A DNA stretch of 47,673 bases from Methanosarcina spelaei (lineage in GTDB: Archaea; Halobacteriota; Methanosarcinia; Methanosarcinales; Methanosarcinaceae): assembly GCF_002287235.1 (NCBI RefSeq), contig NZ_LMVP01000057.1, positions 1 to 47,673 of the forward strand, written 5' to 3'. This document shows positions 8,954 through 36,068 of this stretch, piece after piece (within the stretch, counting starts at the first letter, position 1; the number at the start of each line of letters is the position of its first letter). The position numbers and the translations under genes are program-made. The notes below the pieces were generated by a model, which had not been told where the DNA came from, searched no databases, and saw only the letters and a list, made by a program, of their open reading frames with translations.

Positions 8954-8962
8954 ATAACTCCT

Positions 8963-14185: not shown

Positions 14186-14188
14186 TTT

Positions 14189-15394: not shown

Positions 15395-15599
15395 AATCTT
15401 TTGCTCGTTTTCGCTTCGGATGCATCAAAAGCAGACAGAGGAGGGAGTTAATCCTATAAATACTTCTCTCCAAAATGTGTTTAATTTCTGTCCTTAAACT
15501 GTATGCTAAACCATCGTTCTTGAGGTTATGAAAATAATAACTAAAGTCGTGGGATAAACTAATTAACTACTTTCGCTATTCTGGTAACCGGCTACCATT

Positions 15600-16784
15600 A
15601 TGTTAAAAAAAGTAAATAACATTTTCCTGGTTTATTACGGCTCTTTTAATACTAAATCAGGTTCGAATATCCACATTCTTGAGCTTCTAAGAAATTTAAA
15701 AAAATATACTGATATAGTCCTGTTTGCACCCGGACAGAAGAGTGTAGACCGTTCTCTTTCAGGGATAAAATATGTGCCTGTAATAGACAATAAATATCTT
15801 GTACAGCCTTCTTACGAATTCATGCTTTCTTTTTACCTTCTTTATTCTTGCATAAAAAATAGGCCGGACGTACTCTATCTTCGCCAGAACTCTTTTCCGT
15901 TCTTTCCAATAATTTTATGTAAAATTTTAAAAATTCCTTCCATTGTAGAAGTTAATGGGATAGTTTTGGATGAGTTAAAGGTAGATCCAAATTCACAGTC
16001 CTTTGCGTATAGAGTTTTCTCTTACCTTGCACTTCGGTCTGAAAATTTTAACTACAGGCATTGCGACAGAATTGTCTCTGTCACGGATAAACTCAGGGAC
16101 GAACTTGTGAGACTATACTCTATTCCTGAGAGCAAAATCTATGTTATTAATAATGGGGCAAATACTGATGTGTTCAAGCCTCTAGAATCCGAACAGATGA
16201 GAGCGAAGCTGCAGCTTGAAAGCTCAAAGAAATACGTATGCTTCGTAGGTCATCTTGCAGCCTGGCAGGGAGTTGAATTTCTCATTCATGCTTCTCCTCT
16301 AATTCTTGAAAAATGTCCGGATGTTCATTTTCTTATTGTCGGGGACGGAGTTATGAAGGATAAACTGATGGAAACAGCTTCTAAGATAGGATTTTCAGAT
16401 AAATTTACTTTCACCGGAAGAATTCCCTATGAACAGGTTCCTTTCTACATCAATGCAGCCGATGTTTGCGTTGCACCTTTCATCAAGGAAAGAAACTCGA
16501 AGATAGGACTTTCAGCATTGAAAACTTATGAATACCTTGCCTGTGGGAAGCCTATTGTTGCAAGTGGTATTTCAGGAGTTAAAGACTTAATTGAAGCTTC
16601 AGGCGGTGGACTCTCGGTAACTCCTGAGAGTCCTGAAGAACTTGCGACTGCCGTAGTAAAATTACTTCTCGATGAGAGTACCAGAACCCTTATGGGAGAT
16701 CGAGGCAGAAGATATGTCGTTGAGAATCACAGTTGGGACGGAGTTACAAGAAAAATTCTGGATATATGCAAAGATATCGTTTAA
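15600..16784 (+). CDS. Family 4 glycosyltransferase, paralogue of the one at 36069
   Basis: A 394-residue GT-B protein. Motifs seen: NNGANTDVFKPL near residue 195, FVGHLAAWQGVEFLI near 218, HFLIVGDG near 246, and a C-terminal donor site with KIGLSALKTYEYLACGKP near 305, which contains the second glutamate of the E-x7-E region. It aligns along its full length with the 405-residue protein at 36069-37286, including the WQGVE and YEYxACGKP blocks, so the two arose by duplication. The start ATG 15600 has no strong Shine-Dalgarno site; a small dyad GGTA-ACCGGC-TACC sits just before it. The gene stands alone, 205 bp from the divergent GT4 gene. Confidence 0.88.
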   Translation: MLKKVNNIFLVYYGSFNTKSGSNIHILELLRNLKKYTDIVLFAPGQKSVDRSLSGIKYVPVIDNKYLVQPSYEFMLSFYLLYSCIKNRPDVLYLRQNSFPFFPIILCKILKIPSIVEVNGIVLDELKVDPNSQSFAYRVFSYLALRSENFNYRHCDRIVSVTDKLRDELVRLYSIPESKIYVINNGANTDVFKPLESEQMRAKLQLESSKKYVCFVGHLAAWQGVEFLIHASPLILEKCPDVHFLIVGDGVMKDKLMETASKIGFSDKFTFTGRIPYEQVPFYINAADVCVAPFIKERNSKIGLSALKTYEYLACGKPIVASGISGVKDLIEASGGGLSVTPESPEELATAVVKLLLDESTRTLMGDRGRRYVVENHSWDGVTRKILDICKDIV

Positions 16785-17699: not shown

Positions 17700-19178
17700 A
17701 TGTTAAAACAAGAAGTAGGAATTCTTTTCCTGGTAGGTTGCCTTATTCTTGCAAGTGTTCCTACTGCTTTATGCCGGAGTCCTGTACCAACTGTTTATGT
17801 TGCAGGTGACGGTAGTGGGGATTTTAATTGCGACGGAAAAGATGATCATGTACAGATAAACCAGGCCCTTAAGTTTGTGGCCGATAACTCCGGATATACC
17901 ACTGTCCACCTTAAAGGTCCTTTTACGTATGTTATTGATGATACTCTTCTCATCGGCAGTAATACTATTCTTGAAGGGGATTCAAATGCTGTTATCAAAC
18001 TTGTTGATCATGCAGGCTGGGTTCCAATGAAACCTTTGATCCAGCAGATGAGCAGTTCCGGAAATAGTAACATTGTAATAAGAGGGTTCGAGGTTAATGT
18101 AAACCATGACGGTAACACCGAGTTCGCTAAAGGTGATGGATATTATAATATAATGTACTTCCTCTACTGCAAGAACGTAACCGTATATAATATGTATATG
18201 CACGATGGTCATGGAGACGGGTTGAGGATAAAGTATGGAGAAAACATCAAATTTTATAACAACAAAATCTATAAGCTCGGACATGACGGTCTTTTTGCAA
18301 TTCAGTGTCAGAATGTAGAGGCCTGGAACAATAGAATAACTTGCAGGACTAACAGTGGTCTTAGAATCTGGAACTCAAACCACGTAAAATTTCACGATAA
18401 TGTAATCGATTCCTTTTACCACTGGAGTGCAGGTGGACCGGGCATTCAGATCGAAAAGTCTGCAAGCACTATGGATGACGTAGAGGTCTACGATAATATT
18501 ATCTATGACACCTATGGACCTGGAATGTGGCTTTTCAACTATGATAATTCTTCTGCTACCAGAGACAAGGCGAAAAATGTCGATATTAATCACAATATTT
18601 TCTATGACACTGGCACTAATCCTAGCATTACCTGGGTAGGTGGCATAATAACAGGTGGATTCGAGGATACTATCATTGAAAACAATGTCTTTGACGGAGT
18701 ATATCACGCTGCAATCGCTAACATGTATATCAACAGTTACACTCCAGGCTATGTGCCAGAAGGTGACGGATACACAACAATTGTCCGTAACAACATAATC
18801 ACGAATACCAAGCTGCGCACAAAGTCCCCAAGTGGGACAGGATATGGAATTATGAATTATCTGCCTAAAACACACTCCTTTACAATTCTATATAACTGCC
18901 TTTACAAGAACTCAGCAGGTAACTATAAAGACTGCACCTCAAAAACCGATATCTACTTAAACCCATTATTTGTATACCAGGTAAACCATGATTACCATCT
19001 TCAATCAAGAGGTGGAAGTTGGGACGGGAAAACCTGGGTTAAATATAAAGTGAGTTCTCCTTGTATTGATTCCGGCGATCCGTCTTCTGACTATTCCAAA
19101 GAATCTGAGGACAATGGAAACAGGATCAACATCGGAAGGTATGGGAACACAATCTATGCATCGAAATCAAAACACTGA
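17700..19178 (+). CDS. Secreted parallel beta-helix protein, disaggregatase N-terminal-domain-like (paralogue 1, short)
   Basis: A 492-residue exported protein. A signal sequence (LFLVGCLILASVPTALC) is followed by a conserved VAGDGSGDFNCDGKDD segment and a right-handed beta-helix with many [N/D]-N-x-[I/V]-x-x rungs (FYNNKIYKLGHDGLF, WNNRITCRTNSGLRI and others). It corresponds to the N-terminal half of the 1011-residue protein at 23151-26186 but ends right after the beta-helix at YGNTIYASKSKH, without the Ig-like or DNRLRE domains. Related helices are polysaccharide lyases or hydrolases. GTG 17622 after GAGGTG is a possible longer start; ATG 17700 gives a normal signal peptide and matches paralogue 2. 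A 278-bp tract is identical to paralogue 3. Confidence 0.82.
   Translation: MLKQEVGILFLVGCLILASVPTALCRSPVPTVYVAGDGSGDFNCDGKDDHVQINQALKFVADNSGYTTVHLKGPFTYVIDDTLLIGSNTILEGDSNAVIKLVDHAGWVPMKPLIQQMSSSGNSNIVIRGFEVNVNHDGNTEFAKGDGYYNIMYFLYCKNVTVYNMYMHDGHGDGLRIKYGENIKFYNNKIYKLGHDGLFAIQCQNVEAWNNRITCRTNSGLRIWNSNHVKFHDNVIDSFYHWSAGGPGIQIEKSASTMDDVEVYDNIIYDTYGPGMWLFNYDNSSATRDKAKNVDINHNIFYDTGTNPSITWVGGIITGGFEDTIIENNVFDGVYHAAIANMYINSYTPGYVPEGDGYTTIVRNNIITNTKLRTKSPSGTGYGIMNYLPKTHSFTILYNCLYKNSAGNYKDCTSKTDIYLNPLFVYQVNHDYHLQSRGGSWDGKTWVKYKVSSPCIDSGDPSSDYSKESEDNGNRINIGRYGNTIYASKSKH
17724..18001 (+). repeat. 278-bp tract identical to 23304-23581
   Basis: Every base matches at a constant offset of 5580 bp. Outside the tract the two genes differ every few dozen bases, though the offset persists without a gap to at least 18960. 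It covers the signal peptide and the first rungs of the beta-helix. Confidence 0.9.
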
Positions 19179-19340
19179 GGCATCGATATGTTTATTGTTT
19201 ATCGCAAGTCAAGATATTTGAGGTTGCGTTAATAAACTATCATTGATATAAGTACTATAGCAGTTATGGAGGAGAAACTAGATACTCGTCGAGAACTCCA
19301 TTTGGAGGAATTTGAAAAAGACTCTATATATTTTTATTAA

Positions 19341-19427
19341 TGAGCCTATCCCAAAAAATTATCTAACCTATTATTGCCAATATTATAACTCCTATTCTGG
19401 CATTATATTGGTTTTGGGATAGGTTCA
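19341..19427. mobile_element. MITE-like element with 16-bp inverted ends
   Basis: TGAGCCTATCCCAAAA at 19341-19356 is mirrored by TTTTGGGATAGGTTCA at 19412-19427, with one mismatch in 16. The 87-bp element has no coding capacity. Ends of the type GAGCCT-TCCCAAAA resemble terminal inverted repeats of DDE-transposase insertion sequences, so this is probably a miniature element moved by a transposase encoded elsewhere. A clear target duplication is not visible. Confidence 0.6.
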
Positions 19428-19463
19428 TATAATGTAATATTATCTTTTATTGATAGTGGTACA

Positions 19464-19616
19464 GGTTGTCTCAAAATGACATTTAGTTCTATAGTTGGAC
19501 TCTTTTGTTGACGAGAAAGTAAATCCTACATAAATCTTGGAATAATTTCCATCTCAATTATATTGAAAGTGTCCTTCCCTTCCAATTATAGGAAGTATTA
19601 GATTTTTGAGACCACC
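19464..19616. mobile_element. Second MITE-like element with 13-bp inverted ends
   Basis: GGTTGTCTCAAAA at 19464-19476 pairs with TTTTGAGACCACC at 19604-19616, with one mismatch. The 153-bp interval has no coding potential. The end sequence is unlike that of the neighbouring element, so it is a separate family. No obvious target-site duplication was found. Confidence 0.5.
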
Positions 19617-19717
19617 AGTAAATTTTAATAAAACTGTTTCTAATTTCTCTTTTTCTCCAAAATATTCATTGACTTTTCTTACAATTTTGAACACTGGATA
19701 AAAATTTAAAAAAACCA

Positions 19718-19960
19718 CACAAATATTTTTATAACACTACGATATAATTTACACAGTAGACTATAGAAATTTAATTAATGGCTAATACTCAGTTTATTCA
19801 CTCTGTTTCATGGGGGGACTTGGGTGAACTTGATAGATTGGCCTGAAAAAAATGGAGATTTTTCTGGATCTCTTATTTGTTCCTCTAACAGGATTCAGTA
19901 GCTTCCGCTATGAATAATTTCCCTGAGAATTTCTATAGCCTTGAATGTCGGAGAGTGGAT
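19718..19960 (+). promoter_or_regulatory. Conserved promoter and 5' leader of beta-helix paralogue 2
   Basis: About 240 bp of non-coding DNA that closely matches 22850-23095, upstream of paralogue 3, at an offset near 3132. It starts with a shared AT-rich box (AATATTTTTATAACA here, AATACTTTTATAACA there), which could be the TATA element, and ends with the core TATAGCCTTGAATGTCGG. No frame is shared, so conservation points to a long 5' leader or a regulatory region. Weaker similarity extends upstream to about 19610. Confidence 0.55.
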
Positions 19961-20122
19961 ACTGTTCGAAAAATCCCATCTGTCATTCAGTGAACTGAGT
20001 AAGAAAGTTGTCTAACTATTTCATAGACAATTTTTATTTCTGTAGATTAATGAGCCTTTTTTACCCGGTTCTCACTCTGTAAATTAGTAAATAAAATTAT
20101 ATAGTAATTTCAGGTGATATGG

Positions 20123-22132
20123 ATGCTAAAAAGAGAATTAGGGATATTTTTCCTGGTAAGTTGCCTTATTCTTGCAAACGTTCCTACTGCTTTATGCCGG
20201 AGTCCTGCACCAACTGTTTATGTAGCAGGAGATGGGAGTGGAGATTTTAAATGCGATGGAAAAGATGATCATGTACAGATAAACCAGGCCCTTAAGTTTG
20301 TGGCAAGTAACTCCAAATATACCACTGTCCACCTTAAAGGTCCTTTTACGTATGTTATTGATGATACTCTTCTCATTGGCAGCAATACTATTCTTGAAGG
20401 GGATTCAAATGCTGTTATCAAACTGGCTAATAACGCAGGTTGGGTTACAATGAAACCTATGATCCAGCAAATGAGCAGTTCCGGGAATAGCAACATTGTA
20501 ATAAGAGGTTTCGAGGTTAATGGAAACCATGACGGTAATCCCAAAGTTTCTAAAGGTGATGGATATTATAATGTGATTTACTTTACTAACTGTAATAACG
20601 TAAAAGTATACAATATGTATATGCACGATGGTCTCGGAGACGGGCTGAGGATAAAATACGGTCAAAATATTCAATTTTATAACAACAAGATCTACAAGCT
20701 CGGACATGACGGTCTGTTCGCAATTCAGTGTCAGAATGTTGAAGCCTGGAACAATAGAATAACCTGCAGGACTAACAGCGGTCTTAGAATCTGGAACTCA
20801 AACCATATAAAATTCCATGATAATGTAATCGATTCTTTCTACCACTGGAGTGCAGGTGGATCAGCTGTTCAGATCGAAAAATCTGCAGGTATTATGGATG
20901 ATATAGACATCTATGGTAATACTATATCTAACACTTATGGCCCAGGTATCTGGATTTTCAACTATGATAGCTCTTCTGCTACTAAGGACAAAGGGAAAAA
21001 TGTCCATATTCATCATAATGTCTTCTATAGTACAGGTACCAATCCTAGCATTACCTGGGTCGGAGGTATTGTAGCTAGTGGTTTCCATGATACTTTAATT
21101 GAGAATAATGTTTTTGACGGTATATACCATGCTGCTGTTATTCACATGTATCCGGAAGTTTACTCTCCAAGTTACTCGTCAAAGTACACAACCATTGTCC
21201 GTAACAACATAATCGTAAATACCCAGAAACGTACGAAGTCCCCAAGTGGAACAGGGTATGCAGTGATCAATTACCTCTCCAAGAACCATAACTTTGTGCT
21301 GGAAAATAACTGCCTCTACAACAATGCAGCAGGCAATTATAAAGGCTGCACCTCGAAAACTGACATCTACTTAAACCCATTATTTGTAAACCAGAAAAAC
21401 CATGATTATCACCTTCAGTCGGTTACAGGTCACTGGAATGGAAAATGGGTAAAGGACAAAGTGAATTCTCCCTGTATTGATGCCGGGTGCGTTTCTTCGG
21501 ATTATTCTAAAGAACCTGAAAACAACGGAAACAGGATCAACATAGGAAGATACGGAAATACAATATACGCGTCTCTGTCACCGAGTTCACGAGTAAAAAC
21601 TGTGCAGTCTTCACTAGTAGGTTCGATCTCCGAGGCTACGAATGAGACTGACGAAGATCTTAACTTTACGGCGGAAGTTCTTGAAGGGGATGAAGATAAC
21701 TTCACATACTCCGAAGATCTCTCTGTCGACATACAGGGACCCGTTATTGAATCTGTTCCTGATGCCACAGTGAAGATTGGAGAAACTTTAAACTTTACAG
21801 TGAAAGCTTCTGATATTAATGGAGGCAACCTTACCTTTTCAGCATCTGATCTTCCTGAAGGTGCAAGTTTTGACGAAAGGGGGGTCTTTAGCTGGGCACC
21901 TACAGACGGACAGGAAGGACTCTACACTATATCTTTTGAAGTAAGTGACGGTATGTTCAGTGATTCTGAAGTTGCAACAATAACCGCGATTGAAGAAACT
22001 CCCTTGAATCTCTCAAGCGTAGTTGAAAAAGCTCCTTTGAATCTCTCTGACATATGCGACAGCTATCTTTACAAAGTTTCTCCTGAAGGTCTTTATGTGA
22101 ATAATTTATTTCTTAGATTGGAGGAATTATAG
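20123..22132 (+). CDS. Secreted beta-helix plus Ig-like protein, disaggregatase-like with truncated DNRLRE domain (paralogue 2)
   Basis: A 669-residue exported protein. A signal peptide (residues 1-25, ending PTALC) is followed by a parallel beta-helix to about residue 490, an acidic linker rich in D, E and N-x-S/T sites (about 495-538), and a putative Ig/cadherin-like domain (about 539-625) with LTFSASDLPEGASFD and the YTISFEVSDG strand. The last 24 residues (DSYLYKVSPEGLYVNN and onward) align with the beginning of a DNRLRE domain, then a TAG stop cuts it off. It thus looks like a disaggregatase that has lost its C-terminal half. GTG 20114 lies inside the AGGTGA ribosome site, so ATG 20123, 6 bp downstream, is chosen. 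Confidence 0.85.
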   Translation: MLKRELGIFFLVSCLILANVPTALCRSPAPTVYVAGDGSGDFKCDGKDDHVQINQALKFVASNSKYTTVHLKGPFTYVIDDTLLIGSNTILEGDSNAVIKLANNAGWVTMKPMIQQMSSSGNSNIVIRGFEVNGNHDGNPKVSKGDGYYNVIYFTNCNNVKVYNMYMHDGLGDGLRIKYGQNIQFYNNKIYKLGHDGLFAIQCQNVEAWNNRITCRTNSGLRIWNSNHIKFHDNVIDSFYHWSAGGSAVQIEKSAGIMDDIDIYGNTISNTYGPGIWIFNYDSSSATKDKGKNVHIHHNVFYSTGTNPSITWVGGIVASGFHDTLIENNVFDGIYHAAVIHMYPEVYSPSYSSKYTTIVRNNIIVNTQKRTKSPSGTGYAVINYLSKNHNFVLENNCLYNNAAGNYKGCTSKTDIYLNPLFVNQKNHDYHLQSVTGHWNGKWVKDKVNSPCIDAGCVSSDYSKEPENNGNRINIGRYGNTIYASLSPSSRVKTVQSSLVGSISEATNETDEDLNFTAEVLEGDEDNFTYSEDLSVDIQGPVIESVPDATVKIGETLNFTVKASDINGGNLTFSASDLPEGASFDERGVFSWAPTDGQEGLYTISFEVSDGMFSDSEVATITAIEETPLNLSSVVEKAPLNLSDICDSYLYKVSPEGLYVNNLFLRLEEL

Positions 22133-22280
22133 ATGCTTAATAAGCTCTAGTATACTCAAAAAACTCGCAGCTTGTGGTAAAACTAGCTCTAGTGCATCGG
22201 TTCCAAATTATGGAAATAGGACCGAACCTTAAAATTAACGCTGATCAATAAGCTTCCCACGAAAAACTACAGATGGACAA

Positions 22281-22325
22281 GGATAAACACAAATTGAAAC
22301 TGTCTGCATTCATCTGTGTTTATCC
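22281..22325. repeat. Inverted repeat, possible dispersed palindromic element
   Basis: GGATAAACACA at 22281-22291 pairs perfectly with TGTGTTTATCC at 22315-22325 around a 23-base loop. The flanking AGATG and CATCTG motifs recall the dispersed 'grass' of ATAAACACAGATG-type repeats found between genes in many microbes. It may also end transcription of paralogue 2. Confidence 0.5.
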
Positions 22326-22441
22326 GTGGTTTATTGAAATTTATGGAATCAATACACTGGATAAAACAAGCTCTTTTTGGGAAAATTGGTCAAAATATTT
22401 TAAGAACGTAGCTATAACGGAGTTGCAAGAATGATATTGGA

Positions 22442-22485
22442 GTAACATAATCTGACAGTACTCTTATGATATGTCAGAGAGTTAC
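22442..22485. terminator. Nested hairpin, possible transcript 3' structure
   Basis: An inner stem CTGACA/TGTCAG (22452-22457, 22472-22477) is enclosed by GTAAC/GTTAC (22442-22446, 22481-22485). There is no good T-run directly after it, so a terminator role is uncertain. Confidence 0.3.
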
Positions 22486-22849
22486 GCCTAACTTCTACAC
22501 TCCTTTCTTACTTCTATAATCTTTTCGATTTTCCGGGTATTTCCTGGCAATTTTCTATCTTTATGGAGTCTTAATCTATACATTTTTGATATTTGACAAT
22601 CTGTAAAACTGTCTTTTAAAATGTATAATTCTCTCTTTTAAGGTGAAACAAAAAGTTGACTTTGCCAAAGCTATGTACTATATTATCAAAAGAGAGCATC
22701 CTATTAAAACCGAGGATCTTGATTTTACTCAACAAATTTATTTTCTCAGTAGTTTTAATAAATCATGTTCTAATTTTGACTTTTTTCACTCCAAAGATTT
22801 ATTTGTTCTCCTTAACACTATGCAACTCCTTAAATATTTATATGGTTTG

Positions 22850-23095
22850 CACAAATACTTTTATAACATCAAGATATAGTTTACAGTGTTGACTATAGAA
22901 ATTCATTAAGGTCTAATAATCAGCTTACTCACTATGTTTCAGGGGGTAATAGGTGAGTTCGAGGAATTGGCCTGAAAACGAGGGGAAATTTATTCAGAGC
23001 CACTAATTTATTGCATTTTATAGGATTCAGTAGCATTTGCCATGAATAAGTTCTCCACAACTTTTCTATAGCCTTGAACGTCGGAGAGTGGATAC
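22850..23095 (+). promoter_or_regulatory. Conserved promoter and 5' leader of the disaggregatase gene (paralogue 3)
   Basis: This is the partner of the block at 19718-19960. It starts with AATACTTTTATAACA and ends with TATAGCCTTGAACGTCGG followed by AGAGTGGATACT, the most conserved core (one mismatch in about 32 bp). It lies 55-300 bp before the first possible start of the gene. Confidence 0.55.
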
Positions 23096-23150
23096 TTTTT
23101 GAAAAATTCTATCCAACCTGTGAGATCTAAACTAATATGTAAGATATAAA

Positions 23151-26100
23151 ATGTCAGATTTAAGTAAATTTTTTGCAAATAGTAATAAATTTTATGGGGA
23201 TATTGATACGTCACCACATGAATATCTACCTATGAAAATTAAAAATATGCGCTGTTGTGATCAATCCCAGGCAATCTCGATATTAAAACGAGAATTAGGA
23301 ATCCTTTTCCTGGTAGGTTGCCTTATTCTTGCAAGTGTTCCTACTGCTTTATGCCGGAGTCCTGTACCAACTGTTTATGTTGCAGGTGACGGTAGTGGGG
23401 ATTTTAATTGCGACGGAAAAGATGATCATGTACAGATAAACCAGGCCCTTAAGTTTGTGGCCGATAACTCCGGATATACCACTGTCCACCTTAAAGGTCC
23501 TTTTACGTATGTTATTGATGATACTCTTCTCATCGGCAGTAATACTATTCTTGAAGGGGATTCAAATGCTGTTATCAAACTGGTTGATCACGCAGGCTGG
23601 GTTCCAATGAAACCTTTGATTAAGCAGATGAGCAATTCAGGGAATAATAATATTGTAATAAGGGGTTTTGAGGTTAATGTGAACCATGACGGTAACACCG
23701 AGTTCGCTAAGGGTGATGGATATTATAATGTGATTTACTTTCTTTACTGCAAGAACGTAACCGTATACAATATGTATATGCACGATGGTCATGGAGACGG
23801 GCTGAGGATAAAGTATGGAGAAAACGTCAAGTTTTATAACAATACTATCTACAAGCTTGGACACGACGGTCTGTTCGCAATTGATTGTCAGAATGTAGAG
23901 GCCTGGAATAACACAATAACCTGCAGGACTAACAGTGGTCTTAGAATCTGGAACTCAAACCACGTAAAATTTCACGATAATGTAATTGATTCTTTCTACC
24001 ACTGGAGTGCAGGCGGGCCAGGCATTCAGATCGAAAAGTCTGCAGGTGTTATGGACGATGTAGAGATTTACAATAACACTATCCATAATACTTATTGTCC
24101 TGGCATCTGGCTTTTTAACTATGATAGCTCTTCTGCTACCAGAGACAAGGCGAAAAATGTCTATATTCATCACAATATTTTCTATGACACTGGCACTAAT
24201 CCTAGCATTACCTGGGTAGGTGGCATAATAACAGGTGGATTCGAGGACACTGTCATTGAAAACAATGTTTTTGACGGAATATATCACGCTGCAATCGCCA
24301 ACATGTATATCAATAGTTATTCTCCAACCTATGTACCAGCAGGTGATGGATTCACAACAATTGTCCGTAACAACATAATTGTAAATACCAGGCTGCGCAC
24401 AAATTCTCCGAGTGGGACCGGATATGGAATTATGAATTATCTGCCTAAAACACACTCTTTTGTGCTGGAGAATAACTGCCTTTACAATAACTCGGCAGGT
24501 AACTATAAAAACTGCAAATCGACAACTGATATCTATGTAAACCCTCTTTTTACAGATCCGAAAAACCATGACTATCATCTTCAGTCGGTCTCAGGCCACT
24601 GGAACGGGAAAACCTGGGTTAAGGACAAAGTTAGCTCTCCCTGTATTGATGCCGGATATGCATCTTCGAACTATTCTAATGAGCCTGAAGATAATGGAAA
24701 CATAATCAATATAGGAAGATATGGAAACACGATCTATGCATCTCTTTCAGGGGTTTCTGAGGTAAATCATGCTCCTATAATGAAGCCTATTTCTGCGGTT
24801 ACGGTAAAAGCTGGAGAGAAACTGAGTATTCTAGTAAAAGCTTCTGATAAGGATGGAGACAGCCTTACATACTCAGCTTCAGGCCTTCCTGCAGGTGCAA
24901 GTTTTGACGGAAATTCAGGGTTTTTTAATTGGAGGCCGGTAAATGATCAGGAAGGAGTTTACACGATATCTTTTAAAGTGAGTGATGGTAAGCTCAATGA
25001 TTCTGAAGTTGCAAAAATAAGTGTCATTTTGAATCTCTCTGGCGAGATATACAATAATCGCATACGTGAAGCATCTCCTGAGGATGTCTTTTCGGATAAA
25101 ACATTTCTTGATGTAGGAGGAATAAGCAGTGTTGGCAGATACAGAGACCTTGTATGGTTTAACGTAAGTGAATACACCAATTCCACTGAAATCAGCAGTG
25201 CAACTCTTTTTCTTTTCTGGTATTATCCTTCCAGTACACGACCAAATGATACTGTTATCGAGGTTTACAGGCCTGCTTCCTGGAACCCTGACTATGTGAG
25301 CTGGAATAAAAAGAATGCAAATGTTGTATGGAATAATGCCGGAGGAGACTGGTATGACAGAAACGGTGTCCTCCAGGGCAGTACTCCATATGCTACGTTA
25401 ACTCTAAAAGCCAATAGCTTGCCGGATAACAGGTACTACGAGCTCAATGTAACCGATCTCGTAAAAGAATATGTCAGTGGTAAGTACGAAAACACAGGTT
25501 TCCTTCTAAAAGCCCGCAATGAAAATGATAACTATGTCGCTTTCTACAGTGCTGACTGCGGAAATACAAGCCAGGTACCAAAGCTTAATATTAAGAAAAG
25601 GGTAACTGTAAATGCAACTATTACTGGTGCAAAAGACAACCGTCTGCGTGAAACCTCACCTGAAGGAGTCTATTCTGATACATCATTTATCGATGTGGGA
25701 GAACTAAGTGATGTTGGAAAGTATAGGGCTGTTATATCATTTAACTTAAGTGAGTATACCAGTAGCACAGAGGTAAATAGTGCAACTCTTTCTCTTTTCT
25801 GGTATTATCCTTCCAGTACACGACCAAATGATACTGTTATCGAGGTTTACAGGCCTGCTTCCTGGAACCCTGACTATGTGAGCTGGAATAAAAAGAATGC
25901 AAATGTTGCATGGAATAATGCCGGAGGAGACTGGTATGACAGAAACGGTGTCCTCCAGGGCAGTACTCCATATGCTACGTTAACTCTAAAAGCCAGTAGC
26001 TTACCGGATAACAGATACTATGAGCTTAATGTAACCGATCTTGTAAAAGAGTATGTTAATGGCAAGTATGAAAACACAGGTTTTCTTCTAAAAGCTCGCA

Positions 26101-26186
26101 ATGAAAATGGTAACTATATCGCCTTCTATAGTGCTGACTGTGGAAACACTAGTCAGGTACCAAAACTGAGTTTAGTGTACAAGTAA
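23151..26186 (+). CDS. dag: Disaggregatase: beta-helix, Ig-like and two DNRLRE domains
   Basis: A 1011-residue exported protein with the architecture of Methanosarcina disaggregatase, the enzyme that depolymerises the methanochondroitin matrix and frees single cells. Order: a hydrophobic signal segment (about residues 49-69, ending PTALC), a parallel beta-helix (about 70-530), an Ig-like domain (about 540-628; LPAGASFDGNSG, YTISFKVSDG), DNRLRE domain 1 (about 635-815; NNRIRE) and domain 2 (about 825-1011; KDNRLRE), each with WNPDYVSWNKK and GGDWYDRNG. The ATG used by paralogues 1 and 2 is ATA here (23280-23282). Translation must start upstream: ATG 23151, 23232 or 23247. The last two give a more usual signal peptide. 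The family is firm; activity on the local polymer is inferred. Confidence 0.9.
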   Translation: MSDLSKFFANSNKFYGDIDTSPHEYLPMKIKNMRCCDQSQAISILKRELGILFLVGCLILASVPTALCRSPVPTVYVAGDGSGDFNCDGKDDHVQINQALKFVADNSGYTTVHLKGPFTYVIDDTLLIGSNTILEGDSNAVIKLVDHAGWVPMKPLIKQMSNSGNNNIVIRGFEVNVNHDGNTEFAKGDGYYNVIYFLYCKNVTVYNMYMHDGHGDGLRIKYGENVKFYNNTIYKLGHDGLFAIDCQNVEAWNNTITCRTNSGLRIWNSNHVKFHDNVIDSFYHWSAGGPGIQIEKSAGVMDDVEIYNNTIHNTYCPGIWLFNYDSSSATRDKAKNVYIHHNIFYDTGTNPSITWVGGIITGGFEDTVIENNVFDGIYHAAIANMYINSYSPTYVPAGDGFTTIVRNNIIVNTRLRTNSPSGTGYGIMNYLPKTHSFVLENNCLYNNSAGNYKNCKSTTDIYVNPLFTDPKNHDYHLQSVSGHWNGKTWVKDKVSSPCIDAGYASSNYSNEPEDNGNIINIGRYGNTIYASLSGVSEVNHAPIMKPISAVTVKAGEKLSILVKASDKDGDSLTYSASGLPAGASFDGNSGFFNWRPVNDQEGVYTISFKVSDGKLNDSEVAKISVILNLSGEIYNNRIREASPEDVFSDKTFLDVGGISSVGRYRDLVWFNVSEYTNSTEISSATLFLFWYYPSSTRPNDTVIEVYRPASWNPDYVSWNKKNANVVWNNAGGDWYDRNGVLQGSTPYATLTLKANSLPDNRYYELNVTDLVKEYVSGKYENTGFLLKARNENDNYVAFYSADCGNTSQVPKLNIKKRVTVNATITGAKDNRLRETSPEGVYSDTSFIDVGELSDVGKYRAVISFNLSEYTSSTEVNSATLSLFWYYPSSTRPNDTVIEVYRPASWNPDYVSWNKKNANVAWNNAGGDWYDRNGVLQGSTPYATLTLKASSLPDNRYYELNVTDLVKEYVNGKYENTGFLLKARNENGNYIAFYSADCGNTSQVPKLSLVYK
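25198..25993 (+). repeat. Intragenic direct repeat, 582-bp period, between the two DNRLRE domains
   Basis: About 215 bp starting at 25198 reappears at 25780 with only two or three mismatches, at an offset of exactly 194 codons. It covers the FWYYPSS to GSTPYATLTLKA part of each domain. Sequence on both sides of this core is clearly more diverged, which suggests recent homogenisation of an older domain duplication. Confidence 0.85.
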
Positions 26187-26204
26187 AAGTTTGCATTCTC
26201 AAGG

Positions 26205-26270
26205 AGTTCCATCACTTCCGACCCAGGAACAAGCTTCTATTGTCGGATGTTTTTGGAACTTTTTCTTTTA
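26205..26270 (+). terminator. Two-part hairpin with T-run after the disaggregatase gene
   Basis: AGTTCC (26205-26210) pairs with GGAACT (26255-26260) and, inside it, TCCGAC (26217-26222) pairs with GTCGGA (26242-26247). TTTTTCTTTTAG follows. It starts 19 bp after the stop codon. Confidence 0.65.
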
Positions 26271-26963
26271 GATTTACTACAAAAACATAAAATTTTAAAA
26301 ATTATCCAAGGAATCATTTTAAGCAAGTTAGTATGATTCTAGACTTACTAATCGGGATTAACTTACTTATTTTTGCTCCCAAGATTATTCTTCTTTGTCA
26401 AATTTATCTTTCTCTGTAAAAGTTTTATTCCCAGCTCAGGATCTCTTTTGGATCCAGGCCTACGTTGCGTAAATTTATAATTCGATTTTCTAATATGTCA
26501 GAACTTATGGTAGTTGCATTCCTAATTCTTTTATTTCATTTATTTATCTATTTTTCAGGAAGTCATATCAGATGCTCTTTGAACTTCTGACAAAATTTAT
26601 TTCAACACAAAGGCTTTTATCTTTTGTAGAAATCTTTTACTCGGGGTAGCTAAAATTTGGTTGTTATTAAAAAAAATGAGCCTAAACAAGTTTAAAGTTA
26701 ACACTAAATATGAATAACGATATACCTAAGCTTTTGAATTAAAATTAAAGGTATTTTTCATGAATGAAATTTTTTATGATATAGTTATAAATAAAACTTC
26801 TACTGAGAGATCAAAACTTGAGCCAAATGATCAGCATTCACAAGGATTTAAATTTCGGGCTAGAATAGTTAGTCTGGTCAAGTCGTAAGAAAAACTTTCT
26901 TGTAAGACTATTTTCAAGACTTCTTTCACTGAAATTCTTTAAAACGGATTCTTTTAAGGTGAT
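26271..26963. other. Intergenic region before the first flippase gene
   Basis: About 690 bp, AT-rich. Apart from a doubtful 42-codon frame (26760-26888), no gene, repeat or clear promoter was recognised. Confidence 0.5.
26760..26888 (+). CDS. Possible 42-residue protein, unsupported by homology
   Basis: An ATG at 26760 lies 8-9 bp after AAAGGT and opens a frame of 42 codons with an ordinary, mildly basic composition (MNEIFYDIVINK at the start). It ends 75 bp before the flippase gene and could be a leader peptide, a gene remnant or chance. No relative was recognised. Confidence 0.2.
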   Translation: MNEIFYDIVINKTSTERSKLEPNDQHSQGFKFRARIVSLVKS

Positions 26964-28433
26964 ATGATGTCATATCAAAAGTTTGCAAAGGATGTTGGTT
27001 TTATCGGGACAGTTCAGGTACTTACAAGCCTGGGAACTTTCTTCTTACTTCCGATAATCACAAAAACCCTTGGAACATACGACTACGGACTCTGGGCTCA
27101 GATCAATACCACGGTATCTCTCATCTCTCCTCTTGCACTGATGGGCCTCTCTATGGGTTTTGTCAGGTTTTTATCCTCTGAAACAGAAATAAAAATAATA
27201 AGGGAAGCAGTATATTCCATTCTCTTTTTTGTAACTATAGCCGGTCTGTTTGCCTCATTTTTACTCTATATGTTTGCTGAGCCCCTTGCTACCTTCGGTT
27301 TTAAAGATCCTCATGCAACTTATTTTATTCAGGCAGGTTCCCTTTTAATCCTCCTGAGTGTAATTGAGTCAATATCTCTTTTTTATTTCAGGATTTTCAG
27401 ACAGATTCAGATATTTTCTTACTTAACCCTTTTTGAAACGTTTGGAAAATTATTTTTTATTCTCTTTCTTCTTAAAATGGGGTATGGGCTTCTTGGCGTA
27501 ATTGCGGCTACTCTACTTGTGCAGGGCTCCATTTTTTTAATTTCTCTTCTGATGATTATATCACAGATTGGATTCGTAATCCCTCGGTTTACTTACATAA
27601 AAGAGTACTTGCAATTTTCTCTACCGCTAACTCCCAATTCACTTATTAGATGGATTACGGAATCTAGTGACAGATATATGGTTACTTATTTTCTCGGTCT
27701 TAGAAGCGTAGGCGTATATTCGGCAGCCTGTTCAATTGGCAGTCTTATACAACTTTTTGTAAGCTCTCTTCAGCTCATTCTTCTTCCCGAGTTATCAAAG
27801 CTATTCGATGAGAATAAAACGGATGAAGTAAGAATTTATATGTCTCATTCTCTAAGATATTTCCTTCTTATCTCAATTCCTGCAGTTTTCGGGCTCTCAG
27901 CTCTTGCGAAACCTTTGCTTGGGATCCTTACAACTGATGATTTTCTTTCGGGTTGGTTTGTAATTCCTATTATTGCTTTTTCCGGTCTTCTGGCAGGAAT
28001 CTTCCAGATATTTGTCAATACAATGCTCCTTATCAAGGAAACAAAGACTACGACCTACATCAATATTGTTGCAGCAGTTTCGAATGTATTGATCAACCTT
28101 CTGCTGATACCTTCCATTGGAATTGTTGGAGCTTCACTTTCAACCTTATTCTCCTACTTTTTAATGGCTGTGCTTTGTATGCATATTTCCTTAAAACACT
28201 TTAAACTTGATTTTTATCTCCATGATATTGTAAAAAGCGTTCTGTCCTCAATAACTATGTATCTCTTTGTTTCCTACTTCGTTATCTCAAGCATCTTTGA
28301 ACTCTTTGAGATTGCAGTTATGGGTGTACTTATTTATCTGGTTATGATGTTTTTAATAGGCGGATTCACCGACCACGAACTTTCTTTAATACGAAGGTAC
28401 TTATTCAGAGCCAAAAGCGAGGTCAAGCAGTAG
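26964..28433 (+). CDS. Wzx-type polysaccharide flippase (MATE/MOP superfamily), copy 1
   Basis: A 489-residue membrane protein with about 14 helices and the typical O-antigen flippase opening (GFIGTVQVLTSLGTFFLLPIITKTLGTYDYGLWAQI). The segment SLPLTPNSLIRWITESSDRYMV near residue 215 matches the second-half signature of the family, and LLPELSKLFDE lies near 275. Such proteins flip lipid-linked oligosaccharides across the cytoplasmic membrane. ATG 26964 is preceded by AAGGTGAT. It lies between the disaggregatase and the UDP-sugar genes. The second flippase at 38546-40018 is only distantly similar, so two different lipid-linked glycans may be exported. Confidence 0.88.
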   Translation: MMSYQKFAKDVGFIGTVQVLTSLGTFFLLPIITKTLGTYDYGLWAQINTTVSLISPLALMGLSMGFVRFLSSETEIKIIREAVYSILFFVTIAGLFASFLLYMFAEPLATFGFKDPHATYFIQAGSLLILLSVIESISLFYFRIFRQIQIFSYLTLFETFGKLFFILFLLKMGYGLLGVIAATLLVQGSIFLISLLMIISQIGFVIPRFTYIKEYLQFSLPLTPNSLIRWITESSDRYMVTYFLGLRSVGVYSAACSIGSLIQLFVSSLQLILLPELSKLFDENKTDEVRIYMSHSLRYFLLISIPAVFGLSALAKPLLGILTTDDFLSGWFVIPIIAFSGLLAGIFQIFVNTMLLIKETKTTTYINIVAAVSNVLINLLLIPSIGIVGASLSTLFSYFLMAVLCMHISLKHFKLDFYLHDIVKSVLSSITMYLFVSYFVISSIFELFEIAVMGVLIYLVMMFLIGGFTDHELSLIRRYLFRAKSEVKQ

Positions 28434-28492
28434 TTTTACCTTCATTTTCATACTGGTCGACAAAAAATTGTTTAAGAAAAATGGAATATAAG

Positions 28493-29452
28493 TTATTCTA
28501 CTAAGTTTTTATCAAGTAATGCTCTTGCTGTTTCTCTAATGCTTCTCTCTGATGTATAGACCGGTTTCCAGCCCAAATTTTTCATTTTTTCAATCCCTAA
28601 TCTCATTCTTGGCACATCACCTTTCCAGCCTCTATTCCCTCCGGTATAGGTAAATTTGACATTAGAAAGACCTATCTCTTCTATAACAGCCTTTCCTATC
28701 TCTATGGCACTGATAGTGTCCTCGGAGCCGATATTAAATATATTTACTTTTTCTTTACTGTTCTTAATTACAAACAATATTGCGTCAATGCACTCTAACA
28801 CATGGAGGTAGGATTTTTCTTGCTTGCCATCGCCCAGGATTTCCAGTAAATTAGAGTTTTTTCGCAGTTTCTTTACAAAGTCAACCGTAATTCCATGTGT
28901 ACTACGTGGGCCTACAATATTTGCGAAGCGAAATATCCAGGCCTGCATATCGAAAGTATGAGAATATGAAGTAACTAAGGCTTCACAGGCTAGTTTTGAG
29001 GCACCATAAAGAGATATAGGAATAAGAGGGCCGTAATCTTCTGGAGTAGGCATAATGCTCGCTTCCCCATAAACTGTCGAGGTGGAAGTAAATGCAATTT
29101 TTTCATTATTGTTTTTCCTCATTGCTTCCAGAAGATTGTAGGTCGCCATAATATTCTGATTTAGGTGAATTCTTGTATCGGAGGCTCCAAGCTTGACATC
29201 AGGATTTGCAGCTACATGAAAAATAAAATCAATACCTTTACAGGCCTTCTCTATCGCCTCCTGGTTAAGCAGGTCTCCTTTTATCAGGGTAAAGTCCGGG
29301 TTTTCAAGATGTTTTTCTATAAATTCCATTTTTCCTGAACTCATATTATCAAAAACAGTGACCTGGCTTCCTTTTTCTACAAGGCGGTCTACAAGGTGGC
29401 TTCCTATAAAACCGGCTCCCCCTGTCACAAGTATTTTATTCTTTGCAGCCAT
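28493..29452 (-). CDS. NAD-dependent UDP-sugar epimerase (GalE/GNE-like, SDR family)
   Basis: A 319-residue extended short-chain dehydrogenase. The NAD motif TGGAGFIGSHLVDRL is at the N-terminus, TSTSTVYGEA holds the catalytic serine/threonine near residue 125, and YGASKLACE supplies the Tyr-x3-Lys pair near 150. RFANIVGPRSTHG and SYLHVLECIDA follow in the substrate domain. Family members interconvert UDP-Glc/UDP-Gal or UDP-GlcNAc/UDP-GalNAc. Next to galU and a UDP-glucose dehydrogenase, a UDP-GalNAc or UDP-Gal supply role is likely, but a related dehydratase or decarboxylase activity is not excluded by sequence. TTG 29464 extends the frame; ATG 29452 is preferred because it places the glycine motif near the start. 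It is divergent from galU. Confidence 0.85.
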   Translation of the reverse strand: MAAKNKILVTGGAGFIGSHLVDRLVEKGSQVTVFDNMSSGKMEFIEKHLENPDFTLIKGDLLNQEAIEKACKGIDFIFHVAANPDVKLGASDTRIHLNQNIMATYNLLEAMRKNNNEKIAFTSTSTVYGEASIMPTPEDYGPLIPISLYGASKLACEALVTSYSHTFDMQAWIFRFANIVGPRSTHGITVDFVKKLRKNSNLLEILGDGKQEKSYLHVLECIDAILFVIKNSKEKVNIFNIGSEDTISAIEIGKAVIEEIGLSNVKFTYTGGNRGWKGDVPRMRLGIEKMKNLGWKPVYTSERSIRETARALLDKNLVE

Positions 29453-29652
29453 GGAAAATACCAAACAGTCTTTCTTTCGATTAATACTCTACTACTATGT
29501 CTTAAAGTGGTCAGAAAATACTTTTATTTCTTTCCCTATAGATGGGATGAGTAAATAACCGGAGAAAATTAAAGATTCTCTGGTTAATAAGTATTTTTAA
29601 CCCAACTGTATGAACAACCGTTTCATAGAATTCTTTTATCGGAGAGTTTATT

Positions 29653-30549
29653 TTGACCGTTAAAAAAGCGCTTATTCCAGCGGCTGGCCTTGGGACCCGT
29701 TTCCTACCTGCCACCAAATCAATGCCAAAAGAGATGCTTCCTATTATTGACACACCTGTGATCCAGTATGTTGTAGAGGAAGCTATTGCCTCAGGAATTG
29801 AGGATATAATCATTATTACAGGCAGGGGGAAACGGGCAATTGAGGACTATTTCGACGATTCTCCTGAACTCGAAATGCATCTTGCGAAAAAACATAACAG
29901 TGAACTTCTACAACTTGTCCGGGACGTTTCCTCTCTTGTAGATATTCACTACATCCGCCAGAAAGAGCCCAATGGGCTCGGAGATGCGGTTCTCAGGGCA
30001 GAAAAACATATTGGAAATGAACCTTTTGCCGTGCTTCTCGGGGACGATATTATTGTGAATGACAAGCCCTGCACTGCCCAGCTCATTGAAAATTATGAAA
30101 AGTATGGTAGATCCACACTCGCAGTGGAAGAAGTTCCTTATGAAAAATTAAGTAGCTACGGAATTATAAAGGGTAAGCCTCTTAATAATTCCCTCTACGT
30201 ACTTGAGGACATTGTCGAAAAACCGTCACCTGAAAATGCTCCCTCCAATCTGGGAGCAATAGGTCGCTATGTTTTCACCCCTGAAATATTTGACTGTATT
30301 AAAGAAGCCGGAACAGGGATAGGAAATGAAATCCAGCTAACCGATGGGATTCGGGTTCTTAACAGGTCGCAAATGATCTACGCATGCAGGTTCAAAGGAA
30401 AAAGATTCGATACAGGAGACAGGTTAGGGTACGTGAAATCAATAGTAGATTTTGCTCTTGAGAATGAAAATCTTAGAGAAAACGTACTTGAGTACTTAAG
30501 AGAAATTCTAGTCGCGGTAGAGGAACCTTCAGACAAATCAGACTTATAA
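29653..30549 (+). CDS. galU: UTP-glucose-1-phosphate uridylyltransferase
   Basis: A 298-residue nucleotidyltransferase that makes UDP-glucose from UTP and glucose-1-phosphate in the cytoplasm. The signature KALIPAAGLGTRFLPATKS lies at residues 4-22 and is followed by PKEMLPIIDTPVIQYVVEEA. GLGDAVLRAE and LLGDDII mark the nucleotide and metal sites, and EKPSPENAPSNLGAIGRYV is the sugar-binding segment. Length and order match bacterial GalU closely. The start is TTG 29653, 6 bp after GGAGAG. It is convergent with the UDP-glucose dehydrogenase gene, which uses its product, with 72 bp between stops. Confidence 0.95.
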   Translation: MTVKKALIPAAGLGTRFLPATKSMPKEMLPIIDTPVIQYVVEEAIASGIEDIIIITGRGKRAIEDYFDDSPELEMHLAKKHNSELLQLVRDVSSLVDIHYIRQKEPNGLGDAVLRAEKHIGNEPFAVLLGDDIIVNDKPCTAQLIENYEKYGRSTLAVEEVPYEKLSSYGIIKGKPLNNSLYVLEDIVEKPSPENAPSNLGAIGRYVFTPEIFDCIKEAGTGIGNEIQLTDGIRVLNRSQMIYACRFKGKRFDTGDRLGYVKSIVDFALENENLRENVLEYLREILVAVEEPSDKSDL

Positions 30550-30621
30550 AGGCAGTTAGAGGTCAGTAAAGTTAAAATATATAAATTTGTGTAAAAAAAA
30601 GGAAATAATTTCTGCCGGTTT

Positions 30622-31905
30622 TTACCAGCAGAGCCCCTCACAATCAATATTTTTCGCTTTAATTATCCGCCTTCCATCAATTACTATCTTTTCTTTCATG
30701 CCTTCAAATTCAGAGTCAAGTTGCTTGAACTCATCCCATTCTGTCATTACAAGGCAAGCATCAGCACTTTTAAGAGCGTCTTTAGCTTTCTCGGAGTATT
30801 CAATTGTTGGAAAGATTCGCTTCATATTCTCGGTTGCCATTGGATCGTAAGCGGAAATCTCTGTTCCTAATCTTAGAAGTTCAGCAATGACAGGGATAGC
30901 CCTGGACTCCCTTATATCATCCGTATCGTTCTTAAAAGCAAGCCCAAGGACTGCAATCTTTTTGCCTGCAAGGCTTCCTATTTTTTTCTGGAGTATTTCG
31001 GTCATAAGAATTGGCTGTTTTTCGTTTACTGCAATTACCGATTCTAGAAGATCTGGAGAATAACCTATTTCTTTTGCCTTCCCTATAAGTGCTTTTACAT
31101 CTTTTGGAAAACAGGACCCTCCAAATCCTGCTCCAGAATTCAAAAACCTTGGAGATATTCTGGAGTCCTTACCTACAGCTTCCATAACCTCGTAGGTATC
31201 AACATTTAACCTTTTGCAAATATTGCCAATTTCATTAGCAAAGGATATTTTGGTTGCCAGAAGGGAGTTATTTGCATATTTAATCATTTCCGCTGTTGAT
31301 AGACTCGTGCGGGTGACCTCACATTTAAAGGTCCGGTAAAGTTCCGAGACAAGATCTCCAGACTTCTTGTCAATTGCTCCAACAACTATTTTATCAGGAT
31401 GCATAAAGTCGTAGACGGCTTTTCCTTCTCTAAGGAACTCGGGATTCATTGCAACTCCAAAATCTTTTCCGGCTATTTTTCCTGAAATTTCTTCAAGAAT
31501 AGGAAGGACAAATTTTTCAGTTGTCTCGGGCACAACCGTGCTTTTAACAACCACTACATGGTATCCCTCTTTCTTTGCCAGTACTGCCCCTATACTTGCT
31601 GTTGCTGCACGAACAATTGAAAGGTCTATGCTTCCATCTTCTGCGGAAGGAGTTCCTACACAGATAAAGGAAATGTCCGTATTCGTGATCGCATATTCAT
31701 AGTCAGTGGTTGCAGTGAGACTTTTTCCTGCATACTTTTGCAAAAGCTCTTCAAGTCCCTCTTCATATATCGGAGAAATGCCTGCATTTATCTGATCCAT
31801 CTTTTTCTTGTCGATATCTACGCAGACTACTTCATGCCCGACTTCTGCAAAACATGCGGCGGTGACTGAGCCCACATATCCTGACCCTATAACGGAAATT
31901 TTCAT
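30622..31905 (-). CDS. ugd: UDP-glucose 6-dehydrogenase
   Basis: A 427-residue enzyme that oxidises UDP-glucose to UDP-glucuronate with two NAD+. MKISVIGSGYVG is the N-terminal NAD motif; VVVVKSTVVPETTE lies near residue 120. The catalytic cysteine is in GFGGSCFPKD near residue 257, and GLAFKNDTDDIRESRA in the C-terminal domain is typical of the UDP-glucose-specific group, which separates it from the WbpA/WecC-like copy at 1245-2678. The frame is open to 31950, but ATG 31905 lies 8 bp after GAGGT and gives the classical start. Together with galU it provides glucuronate, a known component of methanochondroitin. Confidence 0.94.
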   Translation of the reverse strand: MKISVIGSGYVGSVTAACFAEVGHEVVCVDIDKKKMDQINAGISPIYEEGLEELLQKYAGKSLTATTDYEYAITNTDISFICVGTPSAEDGSIDLSIVRAATASIGAVLAKKEGYHVVVVKSTVVPETTEKFVLPILEEISGKIAGKDFGVAMNPEFLREGKAVYDFMHPDKIVVGAIDKKSGDLVSELYRTFKCEVTRTSLSTAEMIKYANNSLLATKISFANEIGNICKRLNVDTYEVMEAVGKDSRISPRFLNSGAGFGGSCFPKDVKALIGKAKEIGYSPDLLESVIAVNEKQPILMTEILQKKIGSLAGKKIAVLGLAFKNDTDDIRESRAIPVIAELLRLGTEISAYDPMATENMKRIFPTIEYSEKAKDALKSADACLVMTEWDEFKQLDSEFEGMKEKIVIDGRRIIKAKNIDCEGLCW

Positions 31906-32135
31906 AAATTTGAACCTCTTTATTGAGAATTGGAGAGTAATCAATTCCAATTCTTATTTATTTTTTGATAGGAACTCTTTCCAGTTCCACTCTGGAAATT
32001 GTCAATTTATATAGTTTTCTGTGCCAAGCTCCTAATAATTCTTTACATGTTTATATAGTTTAAAGGTTATACCTTGTATAGTTAGGATTTGATACATGTT
32101 TGTTGATTCCTTACAGAAATTTTGGGGATTTTATA

Positions 32136-32976: not shown

Positions 32977-32999
32977 AGTATTAATTGGGGAGTGAAAAG

Positions 33000-34073
33000 T
33001 TGAGAGTTCTTGTCGATATAGGGCATCCAGCCCATGTTCATTTTTTTAAAAACACTATATGGAGTCTTGAGAAAAAAGGGCATCAAGTAATGGTAGTCTC
33101 GCGAGACAAGGATGTAGTAATAGAGCTCTTGAACGCTTACGGAATTCAACATACTGTTTTGAGTAAAGTAAAACCAGGAAAGATCAATTTACTTGAAGAA
33201 TGGTTTATAAGAGAGTTTAAAACTTTTAAAATTACCCAACATTTTGATCCTGATATTTTTATAGGTATCCTTTCTCCAGCTATAGCTCAAGTAGCCTGGA
33301 TACAGCGAAAAAGATCCATAATTTTTAACGACACCGAACACGCAGTATTGGCGCAGAAGTTAACCTATCCCTTCTGTGACATAATCTGTACTCCTTCATG
33401 CTATCTAAAAAATGAAGGACGAAAACAGATAAGGTATTGTGGATATCATGAACTGGCTTATCTTCACCCATCTTATTTTACTCCTCGTCCTGAAATTCTG
33501 AAAGACATTGGGGTAGAAGAGGGGGAGCCTTTTACAATCCTTCGCTTCGTTTCATGGGGTGCGCACCATGATGTAGGCCAACATGGAATCAAAAATAAAG
33601 TAGCACTTATTCAGGAAGCCGAAAAATTTGGAAAAGTGTTCATAACTTCAGAAGGACCCCTGGAAACAGAGTTTGAGAAGTATAGAATCTGGGTCTCCCC
33701 AGAAAAAATTCACCACTTGCTCTATTATGCCACTCTATATGTAGGTGAAGGAGCAACGATGGCTGTTGAGAGTGCAATTCTGGGAACTCCATCAATTTAT
33801 ATCTCCACTCTTGCAGGAACGATGGGGAACTTTTCTGAACTCGAGAAGAAATACGGTTTACTTTTTAACTACAGTGATTCGCAATCTGCCCTTACAAAAA
33901 TTACAGAACTTTTCAAAGATTCGGAACTTAAGAAAACCTGGAGCCTGAAAAGAGCTGCTCTTCTCAGGGATAAAATCAATGTTACAGAGTTCGTGGTCAA
34001 ACTCATAGAAAGTCTTCCTGAAAAAAAATCTGGACTTTCTTTATCTTCGGTTTCGGATGAGTCTTATGTATGA
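33000..34073 (+). CDS. DUF354 family protein, GT-B glycosyltransferase/epimerase-like
   Basis: A 357-residue protein of the archaeal and bacterial DUF354 family. It starts with RVLVDIGHPAHVHFFKN, a characteristic opening. A middle segment FNDTEHAVLAQKLTYPF near residue 110 and a C-terminal YVGEGATMAVESAILGTPSIYI near 250 resemble the sugar-nucleotide binding loop of GT-B transferases and UDP-GlcNAc 2-epimerases. The biochemical role is not established. TTG 33000 lies 5 bp behind GGAGTGA and gives MRVLVDIGHPAH; the frame is open to TTG 32985. It is the first gene of a plus-strand operon and overlaps the next gene by 8 bp. Confidence 0.85.
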   Translation: MRVLVDIGHPAHVHFFKNTIWSLEKKGHQVMVVSRDKDVVIELLNAYGIQHTVLSKVKPGKINLLEEWFIREFKTFKITQHFDPDIFIGILSPAIAQVAWIQRKRSIIFNDTEHAVLAQKLTYPFCDIICTPSCYLKNEGRKQIRYCGYHELAYLHPSYFTPRPEILKDIGVEEGEPFTILRFVSWGAHHDVGQHGIKNKVALIQEAEKFGKVFITSEGPLETEFEKYRIWVSPEKIHHLLYYATLYVGEGATMAVESAILGTPSIYISTLAGTMGNFSELEKKYGLLFNYSDSQSALTKITELFKDSELKKTWSLKRAALLRDKINVTEFVVKLIESLPEKKSGLSLSSVSDESYV

Positions 34074-36022: not shown

Positions 36023-36068
36023 ATATTAGCAAACTTCTAGAAGGAGCAGTTCACTTACAGGTGATAAT

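Follow-up and report, generated by a model that had tools for sequence, protein, structure and literature searches.

Gene content of the window and its central block

Methanochondroitin, a capsule polymer of glucuronic acid (GlcA) and N-acetylgalactosamine (GalNAc), has been known in Methanosarcina since the 1980s, and its biosynthesis genes were stated to be unidentified both in the 2015 genome paper on M. barkeri CM1 (PMC4582637) and in a 2025 review (PMC12369344). The capsule is relevant to cell aggregation in anaerobic digesters and to resistance to oxygen and viruses, and roles in electron transfer have been proposed for it. Here we describe a 47,673-nucleotide contig of Methanosarcina spelaei (NZ_LMVP01000057.1, contig C57 of a 5.09-Mb genome in 559 contigs; the whole stretch is hereafter called the window), in which polysaccharide genes lie beside genes of the disaggregatase (Dag) family and a block of five genes, W08 to W12, is the best available candidate for the methanochondroitin genes. 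A short list of five makes the gene question testable with existing Methanosarcina genetics.

Open reading frames (ORFs) in the window were numbered in left-to-right order as W01 to W29 (Table 1). We compared the window proteins with segments of 19 related genomes, each at most 40 kb long, and searched for the presence or absence of genes in 31 Methanosarcina genomes, 24 of them of good quality; genome type was assigned by the presence of rnfC only, with rnf-bearing genomes counted as type II. Most of the 19 genomes show synteny with almost the entire window, indicating that the gene arrangement is not due to chance. Hidden Markov model (HMM) searches with Pfam and NCBIfam found a disaggregatase with paralogues, a flippase, a short-chain dehydrogenase/reductase (SDR) epimerase, galU and ugd where a first-pass annotation had placed them, and glycosyltransferases (GTs) of families GT2 and GT4 on both sides, as it had reported; its further label of GT-C-like genes comes down to 13 and 11 predicted transmembrane (TM) spans, with no significant Pfam match.

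Table 1. Features of the window
Feature	Description	Position	Strand	Basis
W01-W05	NDP-sugar dehydrogenase, Gfo/Idh, DegT aminotransferase, hexapeptide acetyltransferase, VimE-like deacetylase	142-5702		
W08	GT2, two C-terminal TM spans; polyprenyl-phosphate sugar synthase type	9859-10764	+	Profiles, TM prediction
W09	GT2, three TM spans; putative chain or repeat-unit glycosyltransferase	10742-11803	+	
W10	661 aa, ~13 TM spans; putative GT-C-type transferase or repeat-unit polymerase	11996-13981	+	
W11	GT4; closest named relative TuaC (teichuronic acid synthesis), below cut-off	14189-15394	-	
W12	GT4	15600-16784	+	
W13	Dag paralogue: N-terminal hydrophobic segment, beta-helix, PF08480	17622-19178	+	
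W14	Dag paralogue: N-terminal hydrophobic segment, beta-helix, PF08480, Ig-like domain	20114-22132	+	
W15	Disaggregatase layout: N-terminal hydrophobic segment, beta-helix catalytic part, PF08480, Ig-like domain, two PF06848	23151-26186	+	
W16	Wzx/MurJ-like flippase	26964-28433	+	PF13440/PF01943
W17	GalE-like SDR epimerase	28493-29464	-	PF01370
W18	galU, only full-length copy in the genome	29653-30549	+	TIGR01099
W19	ugd, AglM-like UDP-glucose 6-dehydrogenase, only copy of its type in the genome	30622-31950	-	
W20-W26	DUF354, deacetylase, GT2 fragment, GT4, FemAB-like, second flippase, second polytopic protein	32985-42055		
W29	Dag paralogue, N-terminal hydrophobic segment; outside 17700-31905	45745-47322	-	

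The genes of the central block travel together. W08, W09, W10 and W11 co-occur in 22 of the 24 good-quality genomes, and all four are absent or broken in the same two, G023 and G001, the latter of which we take to be M. acetivorans C2A. W12 is present in 21 of the 24, with just a 47% paralogue in G025. Every good-quality type I genome has the block, and it is also carried by six of the eight rnf-bearing genomes, which rules out a cassette strictly confined to type I.

At the level of individual proteins, W08 comes closest, among the named NCBIfam families, to AglJ and to PpgS, a polyprenyl-phospho-GalNAc synthase, both well below cut-off, while the TuaC model NF047684 is the top of 48 matches for W11, at 186.4 bits against a cut-off of 550. 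W10 has invariant columns forming the motifs G.TD...H and Y..FPL.H, including D168 and H172. Searches of Pfam, NCBIfam and PDB profiles gave no significant match to W10, and an AlphaFold model built from two sequences reached a pLDDT (predicted local distance difference test) of 34, with no usable fold.

Loss of the block in M. acetivorans and a different cassette in G023

M. barkeri forms a capsule in both freshwater and marine medium, and M. acetivorans forms one in neither (PMC12369344). In the M. acetivorans genome, W06, W07, W16 to W23, W25, W26 and W29 are all retained. Between W07 and W16, in contrast, W08 to W10, W12 and every dag gene of the locus are gone, and the interval now holds X1 (an epimerase gene treated below), two transposase-like ORFs with rve and DUF772 domains, and a remnant of W11. 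This remnant is a pseudogene at the same site, with at least nine in-frame stops, and lies beside the transposase ORFs. As a tree built from W17, W28 and W19 nests M. acetivorans among block-bearing genomes, the absence of the block represents a loss. Its lesion fits a genetic cause of the missing capsule: deletion of the centre of the locus would explain why no capsule is formed even at low salt, and the capsule-less state of this species in fresh water would then have a genetic and not a regulatory basis. We also observed a second lesion in the locus, where the FemAB-like W24 ends prematurely, after residue 91 of 335 (G001:C1, ~5,500,500-5,500,800).

The other genome without the block, G023, which is the deepest branch under midpoint rooting, carries a different glycan cassette between X1 and W17, with formyltransferase, ATP-grasp, GT4, flippase and ManC-type genes, and retains W17, galU and ugd. 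Given the loss in M. acetivorans and this alternative cassette, the locus behaves as a capsule-type locus: its flanks, X1 on the left and W17, galU and ugd on the right, are conserved, while its centre can be exchanged.

A comparison of this neighbourhood across strains had been proposed in the first-pass annotation, and it did reveal a loss that matches the phenotype, although at 9859-16784 and thus outside the region that the annotation had singled out (17700-31905). Its broader proposal, that the region may encode both the matrix and the enzyme that removes it, is partly supported: a surface-polysaccharide cassette does lie in one conserved locus with the gene of a secreted Dag-family enzyme, but the choice of key genes does not stand. 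These shift from 26964-31950 to 9859-16784, and the proposed source of uridine diphosphate (UDP)-GalNAc shifts from W17 to X1.

Nucleotide-sugar supply and export

Capsule-less gut relatives have been described as being without the genes for GalNAc and GlcA precursors (PMC9723798, PMC11362671). In the source genome, W18 scores 377.5 bits against the GalU model TIGR01099 (cut-off, 326.8). W19 falls below the cut-off of the AglM model NF041297 (598.6 bits against 670) and lies well over that of TIGR03026, making it a nucleotide sugar dehydrogenase that most resembles Ugd. Because the genome has only one full-length GalU and one Ugd of the AglM type, every GlcA-containing glycan must draw on them, and the two genes are predicted to be general suppliers of UDP-GlcA, in keeping with the role first proposed for them.

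The first-pass annotation went further and read galU, ugd, the epimerase W17 and the flippase W16 as genes dedicated to making and exporting methanochondroitin, with UDP-GalNAc coming from W17. These genes do adjoin dag, and galU and ugd are the sole UDP-GlcA suppliers. All four, however, are intact in the capsule-less M. acetivorans, so their standing as methanochondroitin-specific genes is not supported; moreover, W17, galU and ugd persist in G023 despite its different cassette. W16 itself is a flippase of the Wzx type, with matches to PF13440 and PF01943 and ~12 TM spans. (In G004, the closest relative, the W16 orthologue matches as two abutting pieces of 99% identity each [L072-L073], which suggests a frameshift or a small insertion; the M. 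acetivorans orthologue is 80% identical.)

The residues of W17 also argue against the assigned role. In the C5 pocket, epimerases acting on UDP-N-acetylglucosamine (UDP-GlcNAc) have Cys or Ser, while those confined to UDP-Glc and UDP-Gal have a bulky Tyr or Leu (PMC6668579, PMC12820599). By motif alignment, W17 has Met at this position in 30 of 30 orthologues, rather than a small Cys or Ser, and among solved structures it is closest to A. fulgidus GalE-1 (3ehe) and to further GalE-like proteins from archaea. Together with its presence in all 24 good-quality genomes of the genus, the Met residue weakens W17 as the UDP-GalNAc source, and we regard the dedicated-gene version as very improbable.

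X1, on contig C323 of the source genome, is a WbpP-type epimerase. Where the region is syntenic, X1 is found ~6 kb (G004), ~7 kb (G003) or ~13 kb (G029) left of the W01 orthologue, a position beyond the left edge of the window. All seven copies read have Ser at the specificity position and the motif PYAAVIP, with its small C2-pocket Ala, as in UDP-GlcNAc 4-epimerases of the WbpP type, group 3 (PMC6668579). X1 thus keeps the residues of the WbpP-type UDP-GlcNAc 4-epimerases 1SB8 and 6DNT (PMC12820599), which W17 does not have. With a bulky Met in W17, X1 is the better candidate and the predicted source of UDP-GalNAc.

Contig C457 also encodes a WbpP-type epimerase whose specificity residue is Ser, which raises the question of whether methanochondroitin might be made by another cluster altogether, either that of C457 or the second glycan unit of the window, W20 to W28. 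The C457 cluster (L121, G000:C457:3466-10851) encodes a UDP-sugar dehydrogenase, tandem WbpP-like and UDP-GlcA-epimerase-like proteins, an EPSP-synthase/MurA-like enzyme (PF00275), unusual in an archaeal glycan cluster, and a flippase; W20 to W26 likewise include a flippase, GTs and a polytopic protein. Yet close relatives of the C457 epimerase (at least 79% identity) are found in just 8 of the 31 genomes, a distribution too patchy for a genus-wide polymer, and we rejected C457 as its general source. W20 to W26, for their part, are largely intact in the capsule-less M. acetivorans apart from the truncated W24. Synthesis by another cluster is therefore, in our estimation, quite improbable.

Disaggregatase genes and a proposed route to methanochondroitin

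HMM searches detected PF08480 (Disaggr_assoc) in four ORFs of the window (W13, W14, W15 and W29) and 11 times in the whole source genome, with Dag paralogues also at other genome sites. W15 (1011 aa; PF08480, 283 bits; one N-terminal hydrophobic segment) is the sole member of the four with two PF06848 (Disaggr_repeat) domains, and we liken it to the disaggregatase of Methanosarcina mazei by Pfam layout alone. A dag gene lies between W12 and W16 in 14 of the 15 stretches that span both; the exception is G012. PF06848 occurs in 23 of the 24 good-quality genomes, G018 having none, and matches 11 times in the capsule-less M. acetivorans, away from the locus. Dag is thereby ruled out as a marker of capsule makers: it sits within the block, but it is neither constant nor obligatory there. 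Nor did the analysis turn up any sign of coordinated switching between aggregates and single cells, which the first-pass annotation had suggested.

Searches by sequence found no solved disaggregatase structure. The catalytic region of W15, modeled from a ten-sequence alignment (pTM [predicted template modeling score], 0.79), folds as a right-handed beta-helix, with structural matches to AlgE-type enzymes, RbmB and polygalacturonases, all at 20% identity or less. The best matches were the A-modules of the alginate epimerase/lyases AlgE4 and AlgE6 (Z, ~40; 340 to 347 residues; root-mean-square deviation, 2.2 to 2.5), at 17 to 18% identity and with a non-rigorous comparison of catalytic residues. 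On this model, the W15 catalytic domain is predicted to be a beta-helix of the polysaccharide-acting type, a shared fold that does not fix the mechanism. RbmB, also a close match (VIA-align Z, 33.7), is a secreted beta-helix lyase encoded within the vps/rbm matrix gene cluster of Vibrio cholerae (PMC11637428), so that bacteria, too, offer a case of a matrix-cutting enzyme encoded alongside the genes that make the matrix, although identity is 18%, the polymer is a different one, and Dag, known here from a model, may be a lyase or a hydrolase.

If Dag is a neighbor by history only, W08 to W12 might make some other surface glycan (an S-layer glycan, a lipid-linked glycan or another exopolysaccharide), with capsule loss having a different cause. 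Several observations are in line with this alternative: AglJ, the closest named relative of W08, acts in S-layer N-glycosylation; Dag paralogues occur elsewhere in the genome, as do the 11 PF06848 matches in M. acetivorans; and relatives of W10 (35 to 41% identity) occur in other Methanosarcinaceae genera, several of them adjoining a W11-like GT4, such that a general lipid-linked glycan role is possible. Set against these are the loss of the block in the sole documented capsule-less species, where the second unit W20 to W26 is mostly retained, and the dag gene found inside the block in nearly every spanning genome. We consider the other-glycan account unlikely, though still credible.

Our preferred reading is that W08 to W12 make methanochondroitin. 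From the gene content, synteny, co-occurrence, loss with its remnant, specificity residues and modeled Dag fold, all results of this analysis, we infer the enzymatic steps and the link to the polymer, and we hold this assignment to be evenly poised. GalU and Ugd would provide UDP-GlcA, and X1 would provide UDP-GalNAc. W08 would place a sugar onto a polyprenyl carrier, on which W09, W11 and W12 may assemble a GlcA-GalNAc-GalNAc unit. A flippase, either W16 or another one in the genome, would then carry the unit across the membrane, with W10 polymerizing or transferring it outside, and secreted Dag enzymes from the same block would cleave the finished polymer and release cells. In M. acetivorans, the centre would have been deleted, leaving transposase genes at the site. 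The full account, in which the block is fed by galU, ugd and X1 and in which M. acetivorans is a natural knock-out, single-celled through a transposon-linked deletion of cassette and disaggregatase together, we put forward more tentatively, at a little short of an even chance.

Several points weigh against assigning the block to methanochondroitin. Another review lists methanochondroitin for M. acetivorans (PMC11267900). The phenotype contrast comes from a single species and probably reflects one deletion that removed linked genes too, while the flippase W16 remains intact there. Six of the eight rnf-bearing genomes hold the block as well, and the other genera with W10/W11-like pairs are not known for methanochondroitin. 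W10 is also a protein with neither an assigned family nor an assigned fold. Enzymes of GT4 are mostly retaining and would give alpha linkages from UDP-alpha-sugars, which bears on the GalNAc anomers of the polymer. Finally, concanavalin A, the capsule stain used, is not a GlcA/GalNAc lectin and is a poor marker of such a polymer.

The Bacillus teichuronic acid (tua) operon makes a polymer of GlcA and GalNAc by means of a UDP-glucose dehydrogenase, a flippase, and GT4 and GT2 enzymes. The likeness to the present locus extends to the TuaC match of W11 and to W19, which matches TuaD at 443 bits (cut-off, 700). No protein of the window reaches a Tua cut-off, however, and the Methanosarcina locus is archaeal and includes a matrix-cutting enzyme; a TuaA-type phosphoglycosyltransferase was not seen in the window, which instead has the GtrB/AglJ-like W08.

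The noncoding regions upstream of W14 (19718-19974) and W15 (22850-23107) share 77% identity over ~260 bases and are a possible common control region. A promoter scan of the window gave results near background, its patterns being those of sigma-70 and not applicable to archaea, and a scan for tRNA and Rfam RNA found none in the window.

In G003 (L070-L071, L141-L142) and G009 (L143, L084), the locus is split or rearranged, and dag copies lie at the break points. W12-dag is ~60 kb from dag-W16 in G003, while G009 has a second W08 and three additional pieces of dag. In both genomes, the dag copies look as if they had served as recombination sites.

At the left end of the window, W01 to W05 resemble a pathway to UDP-di-N-acetyl-glucuronate (WbpA/B/E/D type), and a second uronic-acid glycan may hence come from the same locus. 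Pairs of CAAX-protease-like and DUF1616 genes recur several times around the locus and X1 in the genomes read (in the window, at 7221-8965). Toward the right end, W27 (42079-42666) is an apparent truncated copy of a W01-type polysaccharide deacetylase, and many relatives have a full-length deacetylase at this position.

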